From Sphaerisporangium siamense (lineage in GTDB: Bacteria; Actinomycetota; Actinomycetes; Streptosporangiales; Streptosporangiaceae): 64,000 bases of DNA. The position numbers and the translations under genes are program-made. The stretch lies in assembly GCF_014205275.1 (NCBI RefSeq), contig NZ_JACHND010000001.1, positions 434,001-498,000 on the forward strand, in the 5' to 3' direction. Below the pieces are notes generated by a model. That model searched no databases. It was not told the origin of the DNA and saw nothing but the letters and a program-made list of their open reading frames with translations. Shown in pieces: positions 10,256-61,013 of the stretch (position 1 is its first letter; the number at the start of each line of letters is the position of its first letter).

Positions 10256-11994
10256 CGTGCCCCCAGGTACGCCTGGACGGCCGGGTCGGTGAGGGTGAGG
10301 AGCAGCTTGGGCCAGAGGCCCAGGACGAGCGTGAGGACCACCAGCGGGATCCAGGACGCCAGCTCGTACGGGGTCACGTCGCCTGGACGGCCGGGGCGGG
10401 CGGCCGGGCCAGGGGGCACGGCGCCCTCTCCGGCGGCGAGCCGGGCCTCACGCTCCTCGGCCACGGCGGTGTCGGTCGCGACGGGCTCGACAGGCTCCAT
10501 CCCCTCCGCCCTTTCGACCGGCCGGACGGGTTCGGCGCGCGCCGGTGACGCGTCGGGCGGGGTGCGGACGCGGGGTTCCTCCGGTGTCTCGGCGGTGGCG
10601 ATCAGCGGTTCCCCGGGCGCGGGGCCGCCGCTGGGGTAGGCGAGGGCGGGCAGCGGCTCGCGGGGCGTGCCGTGGGTCAGGCGGGAGAGCATGAGGAGGA
10701 AGTAGGCCGCCGTGAGCACGCCGCCGAGGCCGCCGGCGGCCATGAAGGTGAGGAACAGCGGCCGTGACTGGCCGGGGGCGGGCTGGAAGGCGCCGAGCAG
10801 CGCCAGCATCTCGCCCCAGAACCCGGCCAGCCCGGGCACGCCGAGCGAGGCGACGGCGGCGAAGGTGAGCAGTGAGGCCAGGTACGGCAGGCGGCCGAGC
10901 ATGCCGCTGCCGAGCCGGGACATCTCGGTGGTGCCGTAGCGCTCTTTGACGGCGCCGGCGAGGAAGAACAACAGGCCCGTGATCACGCCATGGGCGATAT
11001 TTCCGAACAAAGCGGCGTTCATCCCGACGGGCGTGAGCGTCGCCAGCCCCAGCAGGACGAACCCCATGTGCCCCACCGACGAGTACGCGATCATGCGCTT
11101 GAGGTCGCGCTGCGCCAGGCAGGCCAGCGACCCGTACACGATGCCCGCCACGGCGAACGCGCCGAGGAACGGCGCCACGGCGGCGGCCCCCTCGGGCAGG
11201 ACCGGGATGGCGATGCGCGCGAGCCCGTAGGTGCCCATCTTGAGCAGGACGCCCGCGAGCAGCACCGACCCGACGGTCGGCGCCTCGGTGTGCGCGGCGG
11301 GGAGCCAGGTGTGCAGGGGCCACATCGGCGCCTTGACCGCGAACCCCAGCGCGACCGCGAGGAACGCGAGCACCTGGACGCCGCGCGGCAGGCCCGCCCC
11401 GTGGGCCCCGGCCAGCCGGACCATGTCCAGGGTGCCGGTGTGCGCCCAGATCAGCAGCAGGCCGAGCAGGAGGACGGCCGAGCCGAGCAGGGTGTAGAGG
11501 ATGAACTTCACCGCCGCGGCCCCGCGCCCCGCGCCGCCCCAGACCGCGATGACGAAGTACATCGGGACGAGGACGATCTCGAAGAACACGAAGAACAGCA
11601 GCAGGTCCAGCGCCAGGAAGGTCCCGATCATGCCGACTTCGAGCACCAGCAGCGTGAACACCAGCGCGCGATGGCGTCCGCCCGCGGGACGGTGGCGGGT
11701 CAGGTAGAGGAAGCACAGGAACGACAGCAGCGCCGTCATCACCACGAGCGGCAGCGACACCCCGTCAACGCCGAGGTGGAACCGCAGCGCGAGCCCGGGG
11801 ATCCAGGGGCGGTCGATCGCGAACTGCACGTCCCCGGCCCTGCCGGCGTCGAAGCCCGCGGCCATCGCCACGGCCAGGGCCAGGGTGACGCCCGAGACCG
11901 CGGCGCCGTACCAGCGGGGCGCGGCGCGGGTGAACAGCAGCACGGCCGCGCCGGCGAGCGGAACGGCGAGGAGGGCGACCGGCAGGAGGTTCAT
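10252..11994 (-). CDS. nuoM: NADH-quinone oxidoreductase subunit M with long acidic insert
   Basis: A 580-residue antiporter-like membrane subunit of complex I. The core motifs are intact: 'LFFVFFEIVLVPMYFVIAVWG', 'FAVKAPMWPLHTWLPAAHTEAPTVGSVLLAGVLLKMGTYGLARI' and 'AYSSVGHMGFVLLGL'. Between the penultimate helix (ending near residue 440) and the last helix (from about 540) lies a Pro/Glu/Ala-rich loop of roughly 98 residues. In typical NuoM this loop is only a couple of dozen residues. The ATG at 11994 lacks a good Shine-Dalgarno but overlaps the stop of a 24-residue mini-ORF, so it is probably expressed by coupling. Confidence 0.93.
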   Translation of the reverse strand: MNLLPVALLAVPLAGAAVLLFTRAAPRWYGAAVSGVTLALAVAMAAGFDAGRAGDVQFAIDRPWIPGLALRFHLGVDGVSLPLVVMTALLSFLCFLYLTRHRPAGGRHRALVFTLLVLEVGMIGTFLALDLLLFFVFFEIVLVPMYFVIAVWGGAGRGAAAVKFILYTLLGSAVLLLGLLLIWAHTGTLDMVRLAGAHGAGLPRGVQVLAFLAVALGFAVKAPMWPLHTWLPAAHTEAPTVGSVLLAGVLLKMGTYGLARIAIPVLPEGAAAVAPFLGAFAVAGIVYGSLACLAQRDLKRMIAYSSVGHMGFVLLGLATLTPVGMNAALFGNIAHGVITGLLFFLAGAVKERYGTTEMSRLGSGMLGRLPYLASLLTFAAVASLGVPGLAGFWGEMLALLGAFQPAPGQSRPLFLTFMAAGGLGGVLTAAYFLLMLSRLTHGTPREPLPALAYPSGGPAPGEPLIATAETPEEPRVRTPPDASPARAEPVRPVERAEGMEPVEPVATDTAVAEEREARLAAGEGAVPPGPAARPGRPGDVTPYELASWIPLVVLTLVLGLWPKLLLTLTDPAVQAYLGAR

Positions 11995-12065
11995 CCGGGC
12001 GTCACCGCCCCGGCCACGACGAACGCGCCCGTGGGCCCGGGTGCCGCGGAGAGCGAGGCGTTCAT
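11991..12065 (-). CDS. Interlocked mini-ORF between nuoL and nuoM
   Basis: A 24-codon frame starting at ATG 12065, which overlaps the nuoL stop (ATGA), and ending at TGA 11991, which overlaps the nuoM start (ATGA). It fills the 67-nt gap exactly. The peptide begins [10 protein letters not shown] and ends GAVTPG. It has no recognisable domain. Its likely role, if real, is to carry ribosomes from nuoL to nuoM rather than to make a functional peptide. Similar mini-ORFs occur at 47608, 49124 and 61013. Confidence 0.4.
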   Translation of the reverse strand: MNASLSAAPGPTGAFVVAGAVTPG

Positions 12066-32215: not shown

Positions 32216-33415
32216 TTGTCTGGTGTGGACTTCACCCGCTCGGGTGTCTCCCGCTTTCCCGATCGCGATCTCGGTGTTCCGCGCTACCGCTGCGAGGTCG
32301 GAGTACCGCTGGCGGAGCAGAAGGAGCTGGGGCACAACCGCTGGCATCCCGACATCCCGCCGCTCCACGAGCTCGGCCCCGGCGACGAGGTGATCCTCGA
32401 AGCCCCCGGCTACGACGACTACCAGCTCAAGGACGTCGACGACGAGCAGGACATCCGTGACTTCGACCTGACCCGCACCCACCCCATCGCCGGCCCGGTC
32501 AAGGTCGACGGCGCCGAGCCGGGCGACCTGCTGGTGGTGGACGTGCTCGACGTCCAGCCCCTCTCCGGCATCGGCTACTCCAACATCCTGCCGGGCATGG
32601 GCGGCCCACTCGCCTCCTGGTTCCCCCGAGGCTACAAGACCGTCTGGGACCTGCACGGCCTGTTCGCCACCAGCCGCCAGATCCCCGGTGTGGAGATCCC
32701 GGCCATCAGCCACCCCGGCGTCATCGGCGTGGCCCCGTCGCACGATCTGCTGCGCGTCTGGAACGAGCGCGAGGATCCCTTCATCGACCAGGGACTGGCC
32801 GCCCCCCGGAGCACGGCGACGTCCACCGCCGTCCTGCGCACGCTGGAGGGGGCGGAGTGGGAACGCGTCGCCGCCACCGCCGCGCGGACCGTGCCGCCCC
32901 GGGAGAACGGCGGCAACCTCGACATCAAGAACCTTTCTCGCGGGTCGCGGGTGTACTTCCCCGTGTTCGTGGAGGGTGCGCTGTTCTCCACGGGGGACTT
33001 CCACTTCTCCGAGGGCGACGGTGAGATCACCTGGAACGCCATCGAGATGGACGGCATCGGCTGGTTCCGCTTCAACGTCATCAAGGGCGGCATGGCACGG
33101 TACGGCATCCGCACGCCGATGCTCCGCCCCTCCCCTGTGGACCCGAACCTGGGCACCCGGTACCTGAGCTTCAGCGGCCTGAGCGCCCGCGGCGGTGATC
33201 AGAAGTACCTCGACGCGACCGCCGCCGCCGTGGACGCCGTCGAGCAGGCGATCGAGTATCTCGGCAAGTTCGGCTACACGCCGGAGCAGGCGTACACGAT
33301 CATCTCCGTCGCGCCCTGCGAGATGCACGTGGGCGGCATCGTCGACATTCCGAACGCCGCGGTGACGCTGAAGGTGCCGCTGGACATCTTCGACAAGGAC
33401 ATCCTGCCGTCCTGA
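32216..33415 (+). CDS. fmdA: Acetamidase/formamidase family amidohydrolase
   Basis: A 399-residue cytosolic enzyme releasing ammonia from formamide or short amides. Family blocks include 'PGDEVILEAPGYDDYQLKD', 'THPIAGPVKVDGAEPGDLLVVDVLDVQPL', 'ISHPGVIGVAPSHDLL', 'GGNLDIKNLSRGSRVYFPVFVEGALFSTGDFHFSEGDGEI' and 'SVAPCEMHVGGIVDIPNAAVTLKVPLDIF'. The TTG at 32216 has TGGAGG 5 nt upstream. GTG 32225 is an alternative. Its neighbour amiS encodes the matching amide channel. Confidence 0.93.
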   Translation: MSGVDFTRSGVSRFPDRDLGVPRYRCEVGVPLAEQKELGHNRWHPDIPPLHELGPGDEVILEAPGYDDYQLKDVDDEQDIRDFDLTRTHPIAGPVKVDGAEPGDLLVVDVLDVQPLSGIGYSNILPGMGGPLASWFPRGYKTVWDLHGLFATSRQIPGVEIPAISHPGVIGVAPSHDLLRVWNEREDPFIDQGLAAPRSTATSTAVLRTLEGAEWERVAATAARTVPPRENGGNLDIKNLSRGSRVYFPVFVEGALFSTGDFHFSEGDGEITWNAIEMDGIGWFRFNVIKGGMARYGIRTPMLRPSPVDPNLGTRYLSFSGLSARGGDQKYLDATAAAVDAVEQAIEYLGKFGYTPEQAYTIISVAPCEMHVGGIVDIPNAAVTLKVPLDIFDKDILPS

Positions 33416-45276: not shown

Positions 45277-46397
45277 TCCCGGTGATGCGGCCGTGGTTCG
45301 GCCCGGAGGAGCAGGCGGCCGTCGGCGAGGTCATCGCCTCGGGCTGGGTCGCCCAGGGGCCGAGGGTCGCCGAGTTCGAGCGCAGGTTCGCTGCCAGCGT
45401 CCAGGCACGCCACGGCGTCGCCGCCTCCTCGTGCACGACCGCGCTCCACCTCGCCCTGGTGCTCGCCGGCATCGAGCCCGGCGACGAGGTCGTGGTGCCG
45501 TCGCTGTCGTTCATCGCGACCGCCAACGTCGTCAGGTACGTCGGCGCCACCCCGGTGTTCGCCGACATCGACCCGGCGACCGGCAACCTCACCGCCAAGA
45601 CCGTCGAGGCGGCCCGCACCCCGCGCACCCGCGCGGTGATCGTCGTCCACCAGGGCGGCGTGCCCGCCGACGTCGAGGAGATCCGCGCCGCCCACGACGG
45701 CCTCCTGCTCATCGAGGACGCCGCCTGCGCGGCCGGGTCCACCTACCGCGACCGGCCGGTGGGCGCGGGCGCGCACCTGGCGGCCTGGTCCTTCCACCCG
45801 CGCAAGCTGCTCACCACCGGCGAGGGCGGCATGCTCACCACCGACGACCCCGAGGTCGCCGCGCGGGCGAAGCGGCTGCGTGAGCACGGCATGAGCGTCA
45901 GCGCCGCCGACCGGCACGCCTCCGGCTCCACGGCCCCCGAGCAGTACACCGAGGTCGGCTACAACTACCGGATGACCGACCTGCAGGCGGCCGTCGGACT
46001 CGTGCAACTCGACAGGCTGCCCGAGATGGTGGCCCGGCGCAGGGCCCTCGCCGCGCGCTACCTGAACTTCCTGGGCGGCATCCCCGGGCTGACCGTCGTG
46101 CGCGACCCCGAGTACGGCACCTGCAACTTCCAGTCCTTCTGGATCGCCCTGCCCGACGACTTCCCCATGAGCCGGAACGAGCTGCTGGACTTCCTCGCCG
46201 CCCGCGGCGTCTCCGCCCGGCGCGGCATCATGGCCGCCCACCTGGAGCCCGCCTACGCCGGCACCGGCGCCCGGGAGCTGCCGGCCACCGAGTGGCTGAC
46301 CGCCAACTCGCTGATCCTGCCGCTGTTCCACAGCATGACCGACGCCGAGCACGACCAGGTCGTGGAAGCGATCCACGCCGCCGCCGCGGGCGGCTGA
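45273..46397 (+). CDS. DegT/DnrJ/EryC1 family sugar aminotransferase (first copy)
   Basis: A 374-residue PLP enzyme. Start 'MIPVMRPWFGPEEQAAVGEVIASGWVAQGP' matches the family. The cofactor region is 'AASSCTTALHLALVLAGIEPGDEVVVPSLSFIATANVV'. 'IEDAACAAGSTY' contains the Asp, and the Schiff-base Lys is in 'SFHPRKLLTTGEGGML'. It aminates a keto sugar nucleotide. It is coupled by ATGA to the glycosyltransferase. The second copy at 49874 is only distantly similar, so two different amino sugars or positions may be made. Confidence 0.92.
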   Translation: MIPVMRPWFGPEEQAAVGEVIASGWVAQGPRVAEFERRFAASVQARHGVAASSCTTALHLALVLAGIEPGDEVVVPSLSFIATANVVRYVGATPVFADIDPATGNLTAKTVEAARTPRTRAVIVVHQGGVPADVEEIRAAHDGLLLIEDAACAAGSTYRDRPVGAGAHLAAWSFHPRKLLTTGEGGMLTTDDPEVAARAKRLREHGMSVSAADRHASGSTAPEQYTEVGYNYRMTDLQAAVGLVQLDRLPEMVARRRALAARYLNFLGGIPGLTVVRDPEYGTCNFQSFWIALPDDFPMSRNELLDFLAARGVSARRGIMAAHLEPAYAGTGARELPATEWLTANSLILPLFHSMTDAEHDQVVEAIHAAAAGG

Positions 46398-46399
46398 CC

Positions 46400-47611
46400 G
46401 TGCGCGTCCTGGTGTACCCGCACGCCATGGAGGTCGGCGGCAGCCAGCTCAACGCCATCGAGCTCGGCGCCGCCGTCCAGGCGATGGGCCACGAGGTCGC
46501 CGTCATCGGCGAGCCGGGCCCGCTGGTCGAGTACGTCCACAAGGCGGGCCTCGAACACCTGCCGCTGGACCCGGGGCGGCGCCGTCCGTCCATGACCACG
46601 GTGCGCATGCTGCGCGAGCTGTCGGCGCGGCGCGGGCTCGACGTCATCCACGGGTACGAGTGGCCGCCGGGCGTGGAGGCGTTCTACGCGGGCCTGCGCG
46701 GCCCCGCCGCCGCGGTCTGCACGATCATGTCGATGGCGGTGGCGCCGTTCCTGCCGTCCTCGCTGCCGCTGGTCGTCGGCACCCGCGAGATCCAGGAGCA
46801 GGCGGCCCCGGGACGGCGGCACGTCCACCTCATCGAGCCGCCCGTCGACGTCGCCGCCAACGCCCCCGGCCACGACGCCGCCGGGTTCCGCCGCGAGTTC
46901 GGCCTGGAAGAAGGGCCCTTCGACCTCGTCGTGGTGAGCCGCCTCGCGCCGGAGCTGAAGCTCGAAGGCATCCTCACCGCCGTGGACGTCGTCGGCAGGC
47001 TCGCCGCCGAACTGGACATCCGGCTCGTCATCGTCGGCGACGGCGCGGCCCGCGCCCAGGTGGAGGAGCGCGCCGCCGCCGCCAACGCCGCCGCCGGCCG
47101 CCGCGTCGTCGTGCTCACCGGGCAGCTCCTCGACCCCCGGCCCGCGTACGCCGCCGCCACCGCGTGCCTGGCCATGGGAGGCTCGGCGCTGCGCTCGCTG
47201 GCGTTCGCCAAGCCGCTCATCGTGCAGGGCGAGGTGGGCTTCTTCGAGCTGCTCACCCCCGAGACCGAGAAGATCTTCCTCAGCCAGGGCTGGTACGGCA
47301 TCGGCCGCGCCCCCGAGGAGGGCGCCCCCAAGCTGGAGAGCATGCTGCGCGGCCTCTACGCCGGCCCGGGGCTGCGGCGCGAGCTCGGCGAGTACGGCAG
47401 GCGGCTGGTCGTCGAACGCTTCAGCCTGGAGCGGGCCGCGCGCGTCCAGCTCTCCATCTACGAGCAGGCGGTCAGCGAGCGGCTCGCGACCCTGGACGCG
47501 GTCGGCACCGCGGCCGGGGTGCTGCGCTACAAGCTGCGCCGCAAGTACGAGCGGTGGCGCGGCACCCACGCCCAGGACGACTTCAACGCCGTGGCGCGGA
47601 GGCCCGGGTGA
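46400..47611 (+). CDS. Glycosyltransferase (GT4-like)
   Basis: A 403-residue GT-B enzyme starting 'VRVLVYPHAMEVGGSQLNAIELGAAVQAMGHEVAVIGEPGPL', the N-terminal acceptor lobe typical of GT4. The donor lobe has 'FDLVVVSRLAPELKLEGILTAVDVVGRLA', 'IRLVIVGDGAARAQVEERA' and 'RPAYAAATACLAMGGSALRSLAFAKPLIVQGEVGFFE'. The GTG at 46400 lies 2 nt after the aminotransferase stop. The substrate is unknown. Its stop overlaps the start of a mini-ORF that leads to the flippase. Confidence 0.88.
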   Translation: MRVLVYPHAMEVGGSQLNAIELGAAVQAMGHEVAVIGEPGPLVEYVHKAGLEHLPLDPGRRRPSMTTVRMLRELSARRGLDVIHGYEWPPGVEAFYAGLRGPAAAVCTIMSMAVAPFLPSSLPLVVGTREIQEQAAPGRRHVHLIEPPVDVAANAPGHDAAGFRREFGLEEGPFDLVVVSRLAPELKLEGILTAVDVVGRLAAELDIRLVIVGDGAARAQVEERAAAANAAAGRRVVVLTGQLLDPRPAYAAATACLAMGGSALRSLAFAKPLIVQGEVGFFELLTPETEKIFLSQGWYGIGRAPEEGAPKLESMLRGLYAGPGLRRELGEYGRRLVVERFSLERAARVQLSIYEQAVSERLATLDAVGTAAGVLRYKLRRKYERWRGTHAQDDFNAVARRPG

Positions 47612-47658
47612 CCGATCTGGTTCCCATGGCCGGCGCGGGCGGCGGGAGGGCCGCATGA
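47608..47658 (+). CDS. Interlocked mini-ORF between glycosyltransferase and flippase
   Basis: A 16-codon frame. GTG 47608 overlaps the glycosyltransferase stop (GTGA), and TGA 47656-47658 overlaps the flippase ATG (ATGA). It bridges the 43-nt gap exactly. Its second half contains GGCGGGAGGG, the flippase ribosome site. The peptide (VTDLVPMAGAGGGRAA) has no domain, and translational coupling is the likely purpose if it is used. Confidence 0.35.
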   Translation: MTDLVPMAGAGGGRAA

Positions 47659-49127
47659 CCGACCTCGATCCCGGATCCGGCCCCCCGGCTCAGGCCCCGG
47701 CGGACACCTCTTCGCTGCGGGCCAAGGCGGGCAAGGCGCTCGGGCTCAGCTTCGTCAGCACCATCGCCGCGCGCCTCGGCACGCTCGCCATCGGGATCAC
47801 GCTCGCGCGCGTGCTCGGCCCGCACGAGTTCGGCACGTTCGCGGTCGCGCTCGTCGCGCTGCTCGCCATGCTGAGCATCAACGAGCTCGGCGTCAGCCTG
47901 GCCATCGTCCGCTGGCCCGACGAGCCGCGCGCGATCATCCCGACCGTGGCCACGCTGTCGGCCGGGTTCAGCGTGCTCGTCTGCGGCGCGTTCATGCTCG
48001 CCGCGCCCGCGTTCGCCGAGGCCATGGGCAACCCCGCCGCCACCGGACCCGTCCGGGTGCTCTCCCTCAGCGTGCTCATCAACGGCCTGGTCGCGACGTC
48101 CGCCGCGGTGATCCAGCGGCGCTTCCTGCAGGGCCGCAAGATGATCGCCGACCAGGTGGACAACTGGCTCGGCGCGCTGGTGTCCCTGGGGCTGGCCCTG
48201 ACCGGCTGGGGCGCGATGAGCCTGGCCGTCGGCCGGGTCGCCGGGTCCCTGGCCGGCGGGGCGCTGCTGATCCGTTTCTCGCCCGAACGGCTGCGGTTCG
48301 GCTTCGACCGGGACGTGGCCCGGCGGCTGCTGGCGTTCGGCGTGCCGCTCGCCGGGTCGTCCCTGCTGGTCTTCGCCGTCGGGTACGCCGACCAGCTCGT
48401 CATCGGCCACCTGCTCGGGTCCACGGCGCTCGGCTTCTACGTGCTGGCCGTGAACCTGTCGGGATGGCCGGTCGCGGTGTTCTCGCAGCCGGTGCGCGCG
48501 GTGGCGCCCGCCGCGTTCGCCCGCCTCCAGCACGACCGCCCGACGCTGAACCGGTCGTTCGTCGCGGTCGCCGGGCTGCTCGTCGGGCTCACCCTCCCGA
48601 TCTGCCTGCTGCTCAGCGGCGCCGCGCCTTCCGTCATCCGCTTCGTGTACGGGCGGGAGTGGGAGCCGGCGGCCGTCGCCCTGGCCGGGCTCGGCGTGCT
48701 CGCCGGGCTGCGCATCTTCTTCGAGCTGATCTACGACTACCTGGTCGTCCTCGAACGCTCCCGCGCGGTGCTCGCCGTCCAGGCCCTGTGGCTGGTCGTG
48801 CTGGTCCCCGCCATGTGGATCGGCGTGAGCAGGGACGGGCTGCGCGGCGCGGCCATCGCGCTGGTCGCGGTCGCGGCGATCGTCGTGCTGCCCACCTACC
48901 TGGGGCAGTTGCGCGGCTCCGGGGTCGGCCTGGCGGACCTCGCCGCGAACCTCTGGCAGGCGGTGCTCGCCGCCCTCGCCGTCGGAGCCGCCGGGGTCCT
49001 CGCCGTGCGCACCCTCTCGCCCGACCTCGTGGTGCTCGCCGCCTCCGGGCTGTTCGCGGTGCTCGTCGTGGGGGCGTACGGGTACCGCAGGCGCGGCGTG
49101 CTGCGCGCCGTCAAGGAGACGTCATGA
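47655..49127 (+). CDS. Lipid-linked oligosaccharide flippase (Wzx/MOP family)
   Basis: A 490-residue membrane protein with about 14 helices. The polysaccharide-exporter pattern includes 'GLSFVSTIAARLGTLAIGITLARVLGPHEFGTFAVALVALLAMLSINELGVSLAIVRWP' and a second half starting 'RRLLAFGVPLAGSSLLVFAVGYADQLVIGHLLGSTALGFYVLAVNLSGWPV'. It should move lipid-linked repeat units across the membrane for the polymerase encoded at 55470. The ATG is preceded by GGGAGGG. Its stop overlaps the start of another mini-ORF. Confidence 0.9.
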   Translation: MTDLDPGSGPPAQAPADTSSLRAKAGKALGLSFVSTIAARLGTLAIGITLARVLGPHEFGTFAVALVALLAMLSINELGVSLAIVRWPDEPRAIIPTVATLSAGFSVLVCGAFMLAAPAFAEAMGNPAATGPVRVLSLSVLINGLVATSAAVIQRRFLQGRKMIADQVDNWLGALVSLGLALTGWGAMSLAVGRVAGSLAGGALLIRFSPERLRFGFDRDVARRLLAFGVPLAGSSLLVFAVGYADQLVIGHLLGSTALGFYVLAVNLSGWPVAVFSQPVRAVAPAAFARLQHDRPTLNRSFVAVAGLLVGLTLPICLLLSGAAPSVIRFVYGREWEPAAVALAGLGVLAGLRIFFELIYDYLVVLERSRAVLAVQALWLVVLVPAMWIGVSRDGLRGAAIALVAVAAIVVLPTYLGQLRGSGVGLADLAANLWQAVLAALAVGAAGVLAVRTLSPDLVVLAASGLFAVLVVGAYGYRRRGVLRAVKETS

Positions 49128-49210
49128 CCGCCGCCCCGCGCGCACGGCCGCGCACCGGCCTGGGAGGATTCGTGCCGGGCCGCACCACGAGGTCGAAGGA
49201 GCTCCGATGA
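49124..49210 (+). CDS. Interlocked mini-ORF between flippase and acetyltransferase
   Basis: A 28-codon frame. ATG 49124 overlaps the flippase stop (ATGA), and TGA 49208-49210 overlaps the next ATG at 49207 (ATGA). It spans the 79-nt gap exactly. The peptide starts MTAAPRARPR, ends RTTRSKELR, and is strongly basic. It has no family. The AAGGAG site of the next gene lies inside it. Confidence 0.4.
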   Translation: MTAAPRARPRTGLGGFVPGRTTRSKELR

Positions 49211-49872
49211 CGCCGCTTCTCCTCATCGGAGCGGGCGGGCTGGCGCGGGAGGTCGCCCAGCTCGTCCACGCCATCAACGACGCCTCCCCCACCTGGGACC
49301 TGCTCGGCCACCTGGACGACGACCCGGCGAAGCAGGGCGCCGTCGTGGACGGCGTGCCCGTGCTCGCCGGGTCCTCCGAGGTGTTCAAGCGGGAGGACGC
49401 GCGGGTCGTCATCTGCACGGCCGGCCCGCGCGACACCGCGAGCCGCGCCCGCATCGCCGCCCGCCTCGCCCTGCCCGGCGAGCGGTACGCCACGCTCGTC
49501 CACCCGTCCGCCTCGGTGTCCCGGTCGTCCGCCATCGGACCGGGGTCCATCGTGCTGGCCCAGGTCGTGATGACCGCCGCCGTCTCCGTGGGCGCGCACG
49601 TGTGCGTGATGCCGCACGTCACCCTCACCCACGACGACGTGGTCGAGGACTACGCCACCATCGCCTCGGGCGCGCGGTTCGCCGGAGGCGTGCGCGTCGG
49701 GCGCGGCGCCTACGTCGGGGCCGGAGCCCTCGTCCGCGAGACCCTCACGATCGGCCCGCACGCCCTGGTCGGCATGGGCTCCGTCGTGACCAAGAACGTC
49801 CCCGCCCAGGAGGTCTGGGCGGGCGTGCCCGCGAAATTCATCCGTCCCGCCACAGTCATCACGGAGCACTGA
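49207..49872 (+). CDS. NeuD/PglD-type sugar O/N-acetyltransferase
   Basis: A 221-residue enzyme. The N-terminal Rossmann-like part is 'LLLIGAGGLAREVAQLVHAIN', followed by a left-handed beta-helix of hexapeptide repeats ('SAIGPGSIVLAQVVMTAAVSVGAHVCVMPHVTLTHDDVVEDYATIASGA'). The catalytic His lies in 'TLTHDD'. It ends 'VVTKNVPAQEVWAGVPAKFIRP'. It probably acetylates the amino sugar made by the neighbouring aminotransferase, whose gene starts 1 nt later. The ATG follows AAGGAG. Confidence 0.9.
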   Translation: MTPLLLIGAGGLAREVAQLVHAINDASPTWDLLGHLDDDPAKQGAVVDGVPVLAGSSEVFKREDARVVICTAGPRDTASRARIAARLALPGERYATLVHPSASVSRSSAIGPGSIVLAQVVMTAAVSVGAHVCVMPHVTLTHDDVVEDYATIASGARFAGGVRVGRGAYVGAGALVRETLTIGPHALVGMGSVVTKNVPAQEVWAGVPAKFIRPATVITEH

Positions 49873-49873
49873 A

Positions 49874-50971
49874 ATGATCCCATTCGTCGATCTGCGCGCC
49901 GCCCACGCCGAGGTGGCCGACGAGGTGCAGCAGGGCTTCGACCGCGTGCTCCAGGACACCGCCTTCGTCCAGGGGCCGGACGTCGCCGCGTTCGAGCAGG
50001 AGTACGCGGAGTTCTCCGGCGTGCCGCACTGCGTCGGCGTCGGCAACGGCACCGACGCGATCGAGCTGTGCCTGCGCGCCGCCGGCCTTGAGCCCGGCTC
50101 GGGCGCCGTGCTGCCCGCCAACACCTTCGTCGCCACGGCCGAGGCCGTCGTGCGCGCGGGACTGCGCCCCGTGCTCGCCGACTGCGACGACGACCACCTG
50201 CTCATCGACCCGGCCGCCGCCGAAGCCGCCATCGGGCCGGACACGGCCGCCGTCCTGCCCGTCCACCTGTACGGCCAGCAGGCGCCGATGGCGGCCGTGC
50301 ACGACCTCGCCGCCCGCCACGGCCTCACCGTCGTCGAGGACGCCGCCCAGTCGCAGGGGTCCCTGCAGGAGGGACGGCCCCCGGTCGGCCTCGCCTCCAC
50401 GAGCTTCTACCCGGGCAAGAACCTCGGCGCCTACGGCGAGGCGGGCGCCGTCCTCACCTCCTCGCCCGAGCTGGCGACGGCCGTCCGGCTGCTCACCAAC
50501 CACGGCAGCCGGCACAAGTACCAGCACGAGACGCTCGGCTTCAACTCCCGCCTCGACACCCTGCAGGCCGTGGTACTGCGCGCCAAGCTCAAGCGCCTCG
50601 CCCGCTGGAACGAGCTGCGTCGCGCCGCCGCCGAGCGCTACGACAAGCTGCTGTCCGGCGTGGAGGGCGTCCGCCTGCCCCGCGTCGCCCCCGGCAACCT
50701 GCACGTCTGGCACCTGTACGTCATCCGCGTCCCGCAGCGCGACAAGGTGATGGCCGGCCTCCACGCCGCCGGCGTCCAGGCCCAGATCCACTACCCCTAC
50801 CCCGTCCACCTGACCCCGGCCTTCCGCGACCTCGGCTACGGCCCCGGCGACTTCCCCGTCGCGGAGAAGGCCGCCACCGAGATCCTCTCCCTCCCCATGC
50901 ACCCGCACCTGACCCCGTCCCAGCAGGAACGGGTCACCGAAACCCTCGACAAGGTCCTCAGCAGCCTCTGA
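49874..50971 (+). CDS. DegT/DnrJ/EryC1 family sugar aminotransferase (second copy)
   Basis: A 365-residue PLP enzyme. 'MIPFVDLRAAHAEVADEVQQGFDRVLQDTAFVQGPDVAAFEQEYAEF' is the typical start of the FdtB/WecE/WlbC group. 'VGVGNGTDAIELCLRAAGLEPGSGAVLPANTFVATAEAV', 'VEDAAQSQGS' and the PLP Lys in 'SFYPGKNLGAYGEAGAV' follow. With the Gfo/Idh dehydrogenase at the operon start and the acetyltransferase just before, the three steps oxidise, aminate and acetylate make an acetamido sugar; this is inference from family roles. It is the last gene of the operon. Confidence 0.92.
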   Translation: MIPFVDLRAAHAEVADEVQQGFDRVLQDTAFVQGPDVAAFEQEYAEFSGVPHCVGVGNGTDAIELCLRAAGLEPGSGAVLPANTFVATAEAVVRAGLRPVLADCDDDHLLIDPAAAEAAIGPDTAAVLPVHLYGQQAPMAAVHDLAARHGLTVVEDAAQSQGSLQEGRPPVGLASTSFYPGKNLGAYGEAGAVLTSSPELATAVRLLTNHGSRHKYQHETLGFNSRLDTLQAVVLRAKLKRLARWNELRRAAAERYDKLLSGVEGVRLPRVAPGNLHVWHLYVIRVPQRDKVMAGLHAAGVQAQIHYPYPVHLTPAFRDLGYGPGDFPVAEKAATEILSLPMHPHLTPSQQERVTETLDKVLSSL

Positions 50972-51000
50972 CGGCCCGCCGGAGCCGGTGGGGCGGGCGC

Positions 51001-51137: not shown

Positions 51138-51998
51138 GTGTCGTCGACGGCTGCCGTGAGCGGATCGCGAACGGTCCGGGAACTCCAGGAGCGGGCGGCC
51201 CGCGCGCTGCCCGCCGAACACGTCACCGACCTCGACGGCTGGTGGCTGCGCCACGCCCCGCACTGCTCCTGGTGGATCGGCACGGTCCTCCCCCACGGCG
51301 ACGCCGACCCCGGCGACATGGCCCGCCGGATCACCGCCGCCGAGCGCTTCTACACCGCCCGCGGCACCACCACCCGCTTCCAGATCACCCCGGAAGCCTG
51401 CCCCCCGGCCCTCGACCCCCTCCTCGCCGCCCGCGGCTACCACCGCGAAAGCCCCATCTCCCTCCAAACCGCCCGCACAACCGAAGTACTCACCCACACC
51501 TCCCGCAACCGACCAGGCCTACCGGAGAACCGGCCGGACCTACTGGGGAACCGACCGAGCCTGCCGGAGGACCGACCACCAGGTCTGCTGGAGGACCGGC
51601 TGCGCGTAGAGCTGGACGAGCGTCCGACCCGCGCGTGGTTCGACGTCTGGTGCGCCGTCCACGCCCACGACGACCCCCGCCCCGAATGGGACCTCCTCCA
51701 CCGCGTGGACCAGCCGTCCGCCTACGCCCGCGCGCTGCTCGGCGACGAGGTGATCGCGGTCGGCCGCACCGTAGCGGACACCGGCTGGGCCGGCGTCTTC
51801 GGCATGGTCACCCTCCCCCACCACCGTGGCAAAGGCGCCGCCCACACCATCCTCAACGCCCTAGCCACCTGGTCCACCACCCAAAACGCCCCAAACATGT
51901 ACCTCCAAGCAGAACAAACCAACCCCAAAGCCCTCCACCTCTACACCCACACCACCTTCACCGAACTGACCACCTTCCACTACCGCACAGCCAAGTGA
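51138..51998 (+). CDS. GNAT family acetyltransferase with internal tandem repeat
   Basis: A 286-residue protein. The C-terminal GNAT core is clear: 'AGVFGMVTLPHHRGKGAAHTILNALATWSTT' (acetyl-CoA loop), 'MYLQAEQTNPKALHLYTHTTFTELTTFHYRTAK'. The N-terminal half is a degenerate GNAT-like or substrate domain. Between them (about residues 120-152) is a repeat of NRPxLPE-type heptads encoded by near-identical 21-nt units. Codon choice toward the 3' end is less G/C-ending than elsewhere. The substrate is unknown. GTG 51138 has GGGAGGGG 6 nt upstream; ATG 51096 is in frame. Confidence 0.8.
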   Translation: MSSTAAVSGSRTVRELQERAARALPAEHVTDLDGWWLRHAPHCSWWIGTVLPHGDADPGDMARRITAAERFYTARGTTTRFQITPEACPPALDPLLAARGYHRESPISLQTARTTEVLTHTSRNRPGLPENRPDLLGNRPSLPEDRPPGLLEDRLRVELDERPTRAWFDVWCAVHAHDDPRPEWDLLHRVDQPSAYARALLGDEVIAVGRTVADTGWAGVFGMVTLPHHRGKGAAHTILNALATWSTTQNAPNMYLQAEQTNPKALHLYTHTTFTELTTFHYRTAK

Positions 51999-52001
51999 AA
52001 C

Positions 52002-52100
52002 GTGAAGGCCATCCCCACCTTGCCGGTGCTGGAACGTCTGGCACGCGCCCTCGACGCGGACGTCGAAGTCCGCCTGACGCCGAAGACTCCAGCCGCCTGA
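52002..52100 (+). pseudogene. Remnant of an XRE-type helix-turn-helix regulator (C-terminal piece)
   Basis: A 32-codon frame reads 'TLPVLERLARALDADVEVRLTPKTPAA', the typical end of small XRE regulators after the recognition helices. The helix-turn-helix part is missing. The upstream DNA is the end of the GNAT gene, 3 nt away. It is probably the leftover of a deletion or insertion at this point. GTG 52002 without a ribosome site makes translation unlikely. Confidence 0.5.
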
Positions 52101-52236
52101 GACAGACTCTTGCGGCGGGCCGAGGCCTTGCCCGTATGCTGGGGACCCAGACGTTTCGTCGATGGTCCGGGCGCGCCGCTGAAAGCGTCCCTCTCATGTC
52201 GCACCTTCATCACGCGGAGGCCGTCCGCACGTTCTG

Positions 52237-52758
52237 GTGAGCCGGCCCGCCGTGCGCGTCCGCACACCCAAGGAACTGCGTGCCGAGCGGCGGCGGCGTC
52301 CGCCTCGCTGCCTCGGTCATCTGCTCGCCGCCCCGCTGTGGCCGTTGCACGGGGTCAACCTGGGCACGCTGCTGCGCACCTGTGACGCCGTCGGCGCGTG
52401 CCTGGCCGTACCCCGGCTTCCCTGGGTGCGGGAGGCACTCGACCGGGGGAACACGCTCCGGCACTCGTCGTGCGTCCACTGGGTCCGCGACCCGCTGGAC
52501 TGGCTCGCCACGCGGCGGGAGGACGGGGCGTCCGTCCTCGGGGTCGAGCTGGCCGAGAACGCGATCCGGCTGGCCGACCTGCCCATGGCCCGCCGGCCGA
52601 CCGTCGCCGTGCTCGGCCACGAGCGGGACGGCATCCCGCCCGAGGCGCTCGACCTTCTCGACGGCGTGGTGGAGATCCCCATGATCGGCGCGGGGGACAG
52701 CCTCAACGTGGCGGTCGCGGGCTCGCTGGTGCTCTACAAACTCGCAGGCTTCGCCTGA
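52237..52758 (+). CDS. SPOUT (TrmH/SpoU) family RNA methyltransferase
   Basis: A 173-residue protein comprising only the knotted catalytic domain. Motif 1 is 'GVNLGTLLRTCDAVGACLAV' with the family Asn and Arg, motif 2 is 'PTVAVLGHERDGIPPEALDLLD', and motif 3 is 'VEIPMIGAGDSLNVAVAGSLVLYKLAG'. It 2'-O-methylates a ribose in tRNA or rRNA. The RNA target is not inferable, and it lacks the extra N-terminal substrate domain of larger relatives. GTG 52237 is used, with GGAGG somewhat far upstream. Confidence 0.9.
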   Translation: MSRPAVRVRTPKELRAERRRRPPRCLGHLLAAPLWPLHGVNLGTLLRTCDAVGACLAVPRLPWVREALDRGNTLRHSSCVHWVRDPLDWLATRREDGASVLGVELAENAIRLADLPMARRPTVAVLGHERDGIPPEALDLLDGVVEIPMIGAGDSLNVAVAGSLVLYKLAGFA

Positions 52759-59916: not shown

Positions 59917-60933
59917 TCAGGTCGAGGCGGGCGAGAATGCGTCGCGCATGAGGACCTGCGGCCGGCCGGACCCGTCGGCGGGCACCGTCCACACGTCGGA
60001 GCTGTCGCCGCGCAGCTTGCTGTACATCACCGTGCGGTCGTCCAGCCAGGCCGCCTGGTCGTCGACGTTGGCGTCCTCGGCGAGCTTCGTCTCCCGCCCG
60101 CTCGCGAGGTCGAGCCGGTAGAGGCGCCAGGGGTCGCTCTCGCCGCCGACGCGCTTCTTGTAGACGACGCGGGTGCCGTCCGGGGACAGCGAGGGGCATT
60201 CGGCGTTCTCGCGCAGCACGCGCATCCTGCGCTTGGCGAAGTCGCCCTGGACGAGGTAGGTCCGGCCCGACGTGGAGACGGTCGCGTAGAACCGGTTGTC
60301 GTCGGAGGCGAAGGTCACGCCCCAGTAGTTGAGGTCGATCGGCGAATGGATGCGGCCGTCCTTCTCCAGCGTGAAGTCCTCCAGGCTCTTGACCAGCGTG
60401 CCGGTGCGGGTGTCCAGGATGCCCGCGCGGGTGGAGAAGCCGACGCTGAGATAGGAGTCGCCGGAGACGAAGAACGTCCAGGCCACCATGCGCCCGCTGG
60501 CCGACACCCGGGCCCGGCTGGGGATGCCCGCCAGCGCCACGCGGCGGACCTCGCGCAGCCGCTCGTCGAGGACGATGGCCTCGGAGCCGACGGTGAGGGT
60601 GGCGCCGACGCGCAGGCACACCCCGGTGCCCGCCGCGGCGTAGAACCGCTTGCAGCGCAGCCCGGTGCTCACCGGCCGTCCCTCGCCGCCCGGGGGCACG
60701 GCGACCACCATGCCGCTGTCGGCGGACGCGCCGGCGCCGACCATCACCAGCTCGCCGCGCGGCAGCGTGGTCTGGCGCGGGACCGCCTGGGCGCCGTTCC
60801 GCGGGACGGCGGCGGGGGACGGCGCGACGGCGCGGGCGCGCAGGATGTACACGGTGCCCGCGGCGGCGAGCAGCGCGACCGCGGCGACCAGCACGATGAC
60901 GCGGCCCCGGGTGGACAGGCCGGACGCGTTCAC
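59917..60933 (-). CDS. Membrane-anchored beta-propeller protein (TolB-like)
   Basis: A 338-residue protein. One membrane helix (about 10-32) is followed by a short linker and propeller repeats with 'VSASGRMVAWTFFVSGDSYLSVGFSTRAGILD', 'ECPSLSPDGTRVVYKKRVGGESDPWRLYRLDLASGRETKL' and 'DDQAAWLDDRTVMYSKLRGDSSDVWTVPADGSGRP'. No enzymatic motif is seen. GTG 60933 is chosen because a mini-ORF from the upstream gene stops exactly there (GTGA); TTG 60960 is in frame but less likely. Confidence 0.75.
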   Translation of the reverse strand: MNASGLSTRGRVIVLVAAVALLAAAGTVYILRARAVAPSPAAVPRNGAQAVPRQTTLPRGELVMVGAGASADSGMVVAVPPGGEGRPVSTGLRCKRFYAAAGTGVCLRVGATLTVGSEAIVLDERLREVRRVALAGIPSRARVSASGRMVAWTFFVSGDSYLSVGFSTRAGILDTRTGTLVKSLEDFTLEKDGRIHSPIDLNYWGVTFASDDNRFYATVSTSGRTYLVQGDFAKRRMRVLRENAECPSLSPDGTRVVYKKRVGGESDPWRLYRLDLASGRETKLAEDANVDDQAAWLDDRTVMYSKLRGDSSDVWTVPADGSGRPQVLMRDAFSPAST

Positions 60934-61013
60934 GCCGCACCGCCCGTTGGGACGTTCCAACGGGGAGCCGGAGCCGTCAGACGGGCGCCGCGCGCCATGT
61001 ACGCGCCTCTCAT
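60930..61013 (-). CDS. Interlocked mini-ORF between acetyltransferase and propeller genes
   Basis: A 27-codon frame. ATG 61013 overlaps the acetyltransferase stop (ATGA), and TGA 60932-60930 overlaps the propeller GTG (GTGA). The 76-nt gap is filled exactly. The peptide begins MRGAYMARGAR and ends NVPTGGAA. No ribosome site stands before the propeller gene, so coupling is a reasonable explanation for its expression. Confidence 0.4.
   Translation of the reverse strand: MRGAYMARGARLTAPAPRWNVPTGGAA

Follow-up and report, generated by a model that had tools for sequence, protein, structure and literature searches.

Organization of the locus

The stretch analysed here (the window) comprises 64,000 nt of the Sphaerisporangium siamense genome (8.5 Mb, referred to as G000; contig NZ_JACHND010000001.1, positions 434,001 to 498,000) and carries a row of glycan genes, in which a glycosyltransferase, a flippase and a hexapeptide-repeat acetyltransferase are encoded one after the other, together with an epimerase, a second glycosyltransferase and two DegT-type aminotransferases, as assigned by Pfam. 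The gaps before and after the flippase gene, of 43 and 79 nt, are each filled by a mini-open reading frame (mini-ORF), of 16 and 28 codons, respectively, which starts in the stop codon of the upstream gene (GTGA and ATGA) and stops in the start codon of the downstream gene (ATGA in both), and all these features lie where the original prediction, made from the letters alone, had placed them (Table 1; coordinates such as 47608 are positions in the window). A frame opened in the upstream stop tetramer and closed in an overlap of 4 nt or 1 nt with the start of the next gene is called here a relay. The original prediction interpreted such frames as keeping ribosomes on the message across gaps between operon genes, an interpretation that is supported by the analysis described below.

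Both mini-ORFs present a start/stop overlap at each end, as in termination-reinitiation. Each has its own Shine-Dalgarno (SD)-like motif inside the upstream gene, and the motif of the next gene lies in the mini-ORF tail. Their SD scores are the top two among the 31 relays found in 1.6 Mb of G000. The AAGGAG preceding the acetyltransferase gene encodes KE, in the same frame as the C-terminal KE of the flippase (KELR-stop compared to KETS-stop). Wrong start calls were rejected, as 47655 and 49207 are the first possible ATG/GTG/TTG codons after an in-frame stop. An RNA element was also rejected, as an Rfam scan of 46000-51000 gave no match, and the fold energies of both gap regions were not better than those of shuffles (z 0.36 and 0.27). 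Simple consensus scans of 47400-49400 matched no promoter or terminator, the sigma-70-like consensus being a weak test for an actinobacterium. Regarding the expected lack of domains, this was confirmed for mini-ORF 2, which has no Pfam match; the Pfam result covers this frame alone, mini-ORF 1 being shorter than the 20-residue limit of the tool.

Table 1. Features of the locus and other relays considered in the text
Feature	Position	Strand	Basis or remark
Glycosyltransferase gene, upstream	46400..47611	+	Gene call; Pfam Glyco_trans_1_4, Glyco_transf_4; stop is the TGA of GTGA
Two diverged junction copies (47590-47625 and 47637-47672)	47590..47672	+	Offset 47 nt; 27/37 aligned positions identical
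SD-like GGAGG, 5 nt 5' of mini-ORF 1, within glycosyltransferase 3' end	47598..47602	+	Sequence, SD score
Mini-ORF 1, 16 codons, VTDLVPMAGAGGGRAA; opens in GTGA, closes in ATGA	47608..47658	+	Fills 43-nt gap
SD-like GGAGG for flippase gene, within mini-ORF 1	47645..47649	+	Sequence, SD score
Flippase gene (Polysacc_synt_3)	47655..49127	+	Gene call, Pfam
SD-like AAGGAG, 5 nt 5' of mini-ORF 2, within flippase 3' end	49113..49118	+	Sequence, SD score
Mini-ORF 2, 28 codons, MTAAPRARPRTGLGGFVPGRTTRSKELR; opens in ATGA, closes in ATGA	49124..49210	+	Fills 79-nt gap
SD-like AAGGAG for acetyltransferase gene, within mini-ORF 2	49196..49201	+	Sequence
Hexapeptide-repeat acetyltransferase gene, downstream	49207..49872	+	Pfam Hexapep, PglD_N
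Relay, 24 codons, before nuoM (NADH-quinone oxidoreductase subunit M, TIGR01972)	11991..12065	-	Sequence
Relay, 27 codons	60930..61013	-	Sequence
Possible relay, 81 codons, across 238-nt gap	51995..52240	+	Gap beyond the range with shown excess
Recent tandem duplication relay	G000:1116703		Period 62, 94% match
Recent tandem duplication relay	G009 stretch position 353186		Period 65, 93% match
Recent tandem duplication relay	G006 stretch position 105814		Period 125, 91% match
kdpF, 29 codons, relay layout with TGATG end	G000:C1:1405817-1405906 (locus L168)	-	TIGR02115, PF09604

The two junctions in related genomes

The flippase is present in 10 of the 11 Sphaerisporangium genomes, thus allowing the comparison of twenty junctions, where 11 are 4-nt overlaps and nine are gaps, all nine being bridged by a relay. 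The junction between glycosyltransferase and flippase (junction 1) is bridged in G000 and G007 (43 nt each), G003 (28 nt) and G009 (178 nt, 61 codons), and the one between flippase and acetyltransferase (junction 2) in G000 (79 nt), G007 (76 nt), G006 (94 nt), G010 (28 nt) and G008 (69 nt). The frame of mini-ORF 2 is retained with a change of length in G007 (-3 nt) and G006 (+15 nt), and junction 2 of G008 is crossed by two chained mini-ORFs, with start spacings of 29 and 44 nt, both 2 mod 3. The 4-nt overlap was taken as the ancestral state because it is present in the other genomes and in Thermocatellispora; if so, the flippase tree, five of whose eight inner forks are resolved, suggests about six gap gains, four of them outside the lineage of the window's genome.

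The encoded peptides do not follow this pattern of retention. Those of junction 1 (in G000, G003 and G009) and of junction 2 (in G000, G006, G008 and G010) differ in length and, past the first residues, in sequence, and no conserved peptide is found for either mini-ORF. In addition, the substitutions between G000 and G007 in eight relays are distributed as 13, 14 and 17 over codon positions 1, 2 and 3, respectively, giving, at the level of the sequence, no sign of peptide constraint in relays. As the frame is kept in relatives and the sequence is not, the frames are probably stepping stones for ribosomes.

More distant relatives of the flippase, from Actinoplanes, Geodermatophilus, Specibacter and Arthrobacter, have other layouts, with junctions that are in part 4-nt overlaps, others being 1-14 or 238 nt apart or in opposite orientation; among them, a junction of Actinoplanes aureus is the one relay, having a CTGA stop. 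In three Sphaerisporangium relatives (loci L005, L006 and L010), the flippase extends past the end of the match and joins the acetyltransferase start by a 4-nt overlap, reading in L010 through a GTGACC that resembles a former start. Such an extension would be an alternative route to closing the same gap.

Frequency and phase of relays in the genome

For the genome-wide count, 1.6 Mb of G000 was sampled, with 1458 genes, 991 same-strand pairs and 191 overlaps of 4 nt, as called by a script that scores hexamers, start codon and SD motif and does not take gene distance as an input. One frame was read per gap, starting one base 5' of the stop codon, and gaps following CTGA, TAA or TAG stops were used as controls. 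In gaps of 10-100 nt, relays were found in 31 of 118 cases after ATGA, GTGA or TTGA (A/G/TTGA) stops compared to 25 of 189 in the controls (Fisher p=0.0035), a range that was fixed after viewing 10-150 and 30-100 nt on 1.2 Mb, where the direction was the same. The excess of relays over controls, which the original prediction required, is real and about twofold genome-wide: it is stable across five settings of the gene caller (p 0.0018 to 0.0054) and persists without the window (27/111 compared to 24/186, p=0.0097).

A stronger pattern is seen in the phase. Frames in phase with the downstream gene were set aside because an open one may be its N-terminal extension, and the proper null expectation is therefore 1/2 and not 1/3; among the open out-of-phase frames, the ratio of relay to overrun phase is 44:9 for A/G/TTGA stops and 52:44 for the controls (p=2.9e-4). 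The comparison with shuffled gaps that had been proposed beforehand, when applied to gap interiors of 30-100 nt, also gave an excess, with 21 relays seen and 16.5 +/- 2.3 expected, but is weak alone (P=0.033, 10 of 300 shuffles being as high). As shuffling still yields 16.5 of these 21, the signal resides more in phase than in the scarcity of stops. Regarding ribosome binding, a strong SD precedes the frame start in five of the 31 relays, in two of the 87 other A/G/TTGA gaps and in none of the 114 CTGA gaps, compared to 39% of the 191 4-nt overlaps.

Conservation of frame and length at orthologous junctions

Orthologous junctions were compared in 400 kb each of G007, G006 and G009 by reciprocal best hits, resulting in 598 comparisons of same-strand pairs. 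At nine junctions, the genes overlap by 4 nt in one genome but are separated by an out-of-phase A/G/TTGA gap in another, and seven of these gaps are relays; without the two junctions of the locus, the count is five relays and two gaps of another kind. Five of seven has a probability of 2e-4 at the control rate (30/289, counting out-of-phase-or-early gaps of 10-250 nt) and of 0.03 at a generous relay rate of 0.30. Left out of the seven of nine were nine junctions in phase with the downstream gene (two of them with 8-nt gaps), because the overlap itself may be the true start, as well as G000_1240, where the gapped genome has a CTGA stop.

Where both orthologues are relays, the condition for entering this list, their lengths differ from those in G000 by -3, -18, +15, +21, +123 and +135 nt, all multiples of three, and other genome pairs repeat these junctions. 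In the unconditional set, made up of junctions that changed in length, carry A/G/TTGA stops in the two genomes and include one relay or more, five of seven are relays throughout; G000_274, G000_439 and G006_137, which have another stop type in one species and no change by a multiple of three, were left out of this count. Length changes in other gap classes are mostly not multiples of three, and those of CTGA relays are not in five of five comparisons, at three junctions. The conservation of the frame among relatives, which had been named as possible support, is thus seen at five junctions, alongside two with early stops and three that lost the A/G/TTGA stop. Of the outcomes named beforehand as refutations, neither a lack of excess over controls nor frame-breaking indels as a common feature of these gaps was seen.

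Eight extra junctions were sought in the genus, of which three gave sequence, and one control junction, rather than three, was compared. The junction G000:827001 was located in eight of the 11 genomes and is bridged in four of them, across 100 nt in both G000 and G007 (with two one-base indels in their alignment), 16 nt in G006 and 19 nt in G001. The G003 frame stops early relative to the called start, 142 nt off, but closes, as read by eye, at an ATGA that opens a homologous N-terminus. The frame overruns the start in G009, the junction is a 4-nt overlap in G002, and in G008 the nearest upstream gene is 882 nt off. The relay at G000:1010127 has the same length in G007; at the threshold used, no further genome has the gene.

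Probable origin by junction duplication

In the three recent cases of Table 1, the relay clearly arose by tandem duplication of its own junction. Their periods are all 2 mod 3, and the fused peptide can be read for the periods of 62 and 65: at G009 353186, the mini-peptide MTAADSGHRPMAATPRTEPAVR consists of the downstream start (MTAADPRHRPMAA) fused to the upstream end (TPRTEPAVR-stop). When genes overlap by 4 nt, a tandem copy whose length is 2 mod 3 keeps the repeated 3' part of the upstream gene in that gene's reading frame; the new frame is therefore open by construction and closes at the overlap. As seen by a junction-similarity test on 592 TGA gaps of four genomes, where orthologues were counted separately, the five best gaps are all A/G/TTGA relays, and the 99% level of the null is exceeded by seven of 47 relays (0.5 expected), five of 219 other A/G/TTGA gaps and three of 306 CTGA non-relays.

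At the locus itself, a duplication is well supported for mini-ORF 1, whose two junction copies are more similar than random pairs (P about 0.004). Mini-ORF 2 aligns to the flippase end with 21 of 31 nucleotides identical, at an offset of 83 nt. Both offsets, of 47 and 83 nt, are 2 mod 3 because any relay must be.

No dispersed repeat family was found when 50 relay queries were searched against 2.8 Mb (1.6 Mb of G000 and 0.4 Mb of each of the three relatives); besides self-hits, the search recovered orthologues, tandem copies nearby and some weak matches of short length, as many as 14 for a single query.

In the nuo operon of G006 (L138-L157 concatenated, about 103374 and 105814), neighbouring relays of 190 and 244 nt surround nuoM, the longer being a 125-nt tandem repeat of 2.2 copies; a 4-nt overlap is present at both junctions in G009 and at the second in G000 and G007.

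Proposed mechanism and alternative explanations

The best explanation of these features, as judged from sequence comparison, is that the mini-ORFs are translational relays, made by junction duplication and preserving the coupling of the neighbouring genes, to which we assign a probability of about 0.7. In this model, the ancestral state would be a 4-nt overlap (ATGA or GTGA), passed by ribosomes through termination-reinitiation. A short tandem duplication, or an insertion, over the junction would leave the old start in place and shift the working start downstream. With an insert of 2 mod 3, the frame from the old start would read first the N-terminal codons of the downstream gene and then the duplicated 3' part of the upstream gene in that gene's proper frame, stopping at the TGA of the upstream gene itself, which overlaps the new start; the SD motif in the tail of the upstream gene would be copied along. 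The ribosome would then end the first gene, restart on the mini-ORF, end it and restart on the second gene, and coupling would survive although the genes lie tens of nucleotides apart, and up to 244 nt in relatives. Later, the sequence would drift and the frame would be held. Translation, reinitiation and a selection acting on coupling rather than on the peptide are what we infer from these data.

A wider claim, for which the odds seem slightly below even, is that junction duplication is a general route for separating genes with 4-nt overlaps without losing translational continuity. Any tandem copy of 2 mod 3 over an ATGA would make, in one step, a stop-free bridging cistron and a copied ribosome-binding site, and selection would then keep only the frame. 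The number of functional relays would be of the order of 80 per genome, as the excess is about 15 of the 31 in 1.6 Mb, extrapolated.

Several observations weigh against the relay interpretation or its extent. A strong SD is missing from the mini-ORF start of 26 of the 31 relays, and the excess is only about twofold, so that about half of the relays, including many individual ones elsewhere in the genome, are due to chance. The 0.4 Mb added later is non-significant alone (7/28 compared to 7/53, p=0.15), as are G006 and G009 together at 10-100 nt (7/34 compared to 7/78, p=0.084; at 10-150 nt, 9/45 compared to 9/111, p=0.037) and their phase bias (9:4 compared to 20:16). No excess is present at 101-200 nt in G000 (3/57 compared to 5/132), and multi-step chains are not in excess genome-wide (4/154 compared to 6/161 CTGA gaps). 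Regarding orthologues, two gained gaps are not relays (G000_331 and G000_477), G000_352 (change of 36) and G000_536 (change of -19) are relays in the relative with an early stop in G000, and three junctions with a length change lost the A/G/TTGA stop in the orthologue. In the TAA/TAG control relays, six of 15 rows show a multiple of three, and a CTGA control gap, at the upstream junction of L188-L190, keeps the relay frame in three species (61, 58 and 64 nt), although CTG is not a usual start codon; either chance or another constraint accounts for this gap. Moreover, the duplication of mini-ORF 2 is only suggestive (P 0.27, ungapped test), and the gene starts, the SD motif list and its weights were set by this analysis itself.

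The same data can be read as neutral debris, where junction duplications occur and relays are their visible third, with no selection. The clear duplication origin of the recent cases and the lack of a strong SD at the old start of most relays fit this reading, and in-frame duplications, partly hidden as N-terminal extensions, would inflate the apparent share of relays, as the nine in-phase junctions illustrate. However, it predicts as many gaps in the third frame as relays, and the relay phase prevails by 44:9 among open frames and by 56:18 when those with early stops are included, compared to 66:68 in the controls. In addition, the frame was kept through later length changes at five junctions and all nine gaps are bridged at the two junctions of the locus, making debris without selection unlikely. 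Chance, which the original prediction had itself raised, would act through high G+C content, with rare stops and common NTGA junctions giving accidental frames, and about 13% of the control gaps (25/189) do show the relay pattern, while shuffling the gaps yields 16.5 relays against the 21 observed. This is opposed by the excess, the phase bias and the conservation of the frame and, at the locus, by the best SD motifs of the 31 relays and by four further lineages with bridges at these two junctions, which would be independent given an ancestral 4-nt overlap. Thus, chance is largely refuted at this locus, having only a slim probability there, and still accounts for perhaps half of those found elsewhere.

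A further possibility is that the mini-ORFs encode small functional proteins. The kdpF gene, which sits in a relay layout, serves as a positive control: genuine small proteins can be encoded in this arrangement, too. The lack of a Pfam match for mini-ORF 2, the peptides that vary between genomes at both junctions and the substitutions without codon-position bias argue against it, and for the two mini-ORFs of the locus such a role is scarcely credible.

Comparison with known systems

Short ORFs coupled to a following gene are also seen in the mycobacterial interspersed repetitive units (MIRUs), for example in senX3-regX3, whose original account is said to be that of Supply et al. in 1997. The MIRU ORF, like the mini-ORFs, is coupled at -4; the mini-ORFs, however, also overlap the upstream stop. 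MIRUs are a dispersed family, in contrast to the local origin of the recent relays, for which no such family was found in the 2.8 Mb. As for a mobile insertion, gaps occur where relatives overlap, yet in the recent cases it was the junction itself that underwent tandem duplication. According to a 2025 review (PMC12548453), short ORFs can supply a coupled gene with ribosomes, and MIRUs insert at start codons, where the coupling of their ORF to the next gene is thought to spare expression; tandem MIRU copies (three 77-bp units) have also been described (PMC4213456).

In mycobacteria, Shell et al. (2015, PMC4633059) report small ORFs coupled through RTGA (23/220), commoner than expected, with a delivery of ribosomes that is independent of the peptide according to the authors. 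The stop of those frames likewise falls in an RTGA tetramer where the next gene starts, but the frames begin leaderless transcripts, whereas the mini-ORFs lie between same-strand genes of an operon and are coupled at both ends, and the weak sigma-70-like scan of 47400-49400 matched nothing. The mgtQ ORF of Salmonella (8 codons, between mgtC and mgtB; PMC8092293), whose translation promotes the next gene, is likewise described as an intergenic operon mini-ORF with its own SD and a length that varies between species. It differs in starting 51 nt past the upstream stop and in opening an RNA stem-loop via Asp and Glu codons, compared to gap folds that are here no stabler than shuffles, as judged by energies only.

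Termination-reinitiation at ATGA and TGATG overlaps has been described by Huber et al. (2019, PMC6728339; 2023, PMC10666635). The overlap tetramer is found at both mini-ORF ends and, in several relatives, joins the genes directly at both junctions; a relay would bypass the limit expressed in the title of the 2023 paper, in which coupling needs an overlap or a very short distance. Bicistronic designs and nonsense-peptide boosters (PMC13255528, PMC5995908), where a short ORF raises the translation of the next one, are presented as engineered leaders (with an internal ribosome-binding site in PMC13255528) and not as natural links within operons. For enterobacteria, a survey of small intergenic ORFs (PMC11188072) includes overlaps with neighbours on either side and, in the passages considered, does not treat the bridging of both. 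Among the open-licence matches listed, no title or beginning of an abstract names junction duplication as the source of bridging ORFs. The junction-duplication origin is the new part of the finding, the relay itself being a variant of MIRU-like bridging ORFs and of termination-reinitiation. Neither this origin, nor the 4-nt overlaps at the same junctions in relatives, nor the MIRU precedent had been part of the original prediction.

If the relay interpretation is true, some gaps of 10-250 nt in the operons of high-GC actinobacteria would be translated and not simply spacers, and coupling may extend to gene pairs so far considered too distant for it. It would also explain how an overlap can open without loss of coupled expression, making the relay a non-mobile counterpart to MIRUs. 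Its signature, a frame that is kept while the length varies by multiples of three and the peptide is free to change, could be counted in any genus. The annotation of small proteins would be affected as well, as short frames translated within operons may in some cases serve as bridges for ribosomes and not as protein genes.

Other relays in the window and further observations

The two minus-strand cases that had been listed together with the mini-ORFs are real. The junction at 11991..12065 is a relay in G006 (190 nt) and a 4-nt overlap in G007 and G009; the one at 60930..61013 is a relay in G007 and a 4-nt overlap in G006 and G009. The window has 24 same-strand gaps of 1-250 nt and, by our own gene calls, only four A/G/TTGA relays with a gap of 10-100 nt; it is relay-rich compared to the average, as 31 relays in 1.6 Mb correspond to about 1.2 per 64 kb. 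Control-type stops add two relays with gaps of 10-250 nt, at 33412 (CTGA, gap of 154 nt) and 42034 (TAA, gap of 79 nt).

As a minor observation, the record NZ_LT559118.1 of the PLSDB plasmid collection, from Nonomuraea, has 11.85 Mb and, judged by its size, looks like a chromosome.

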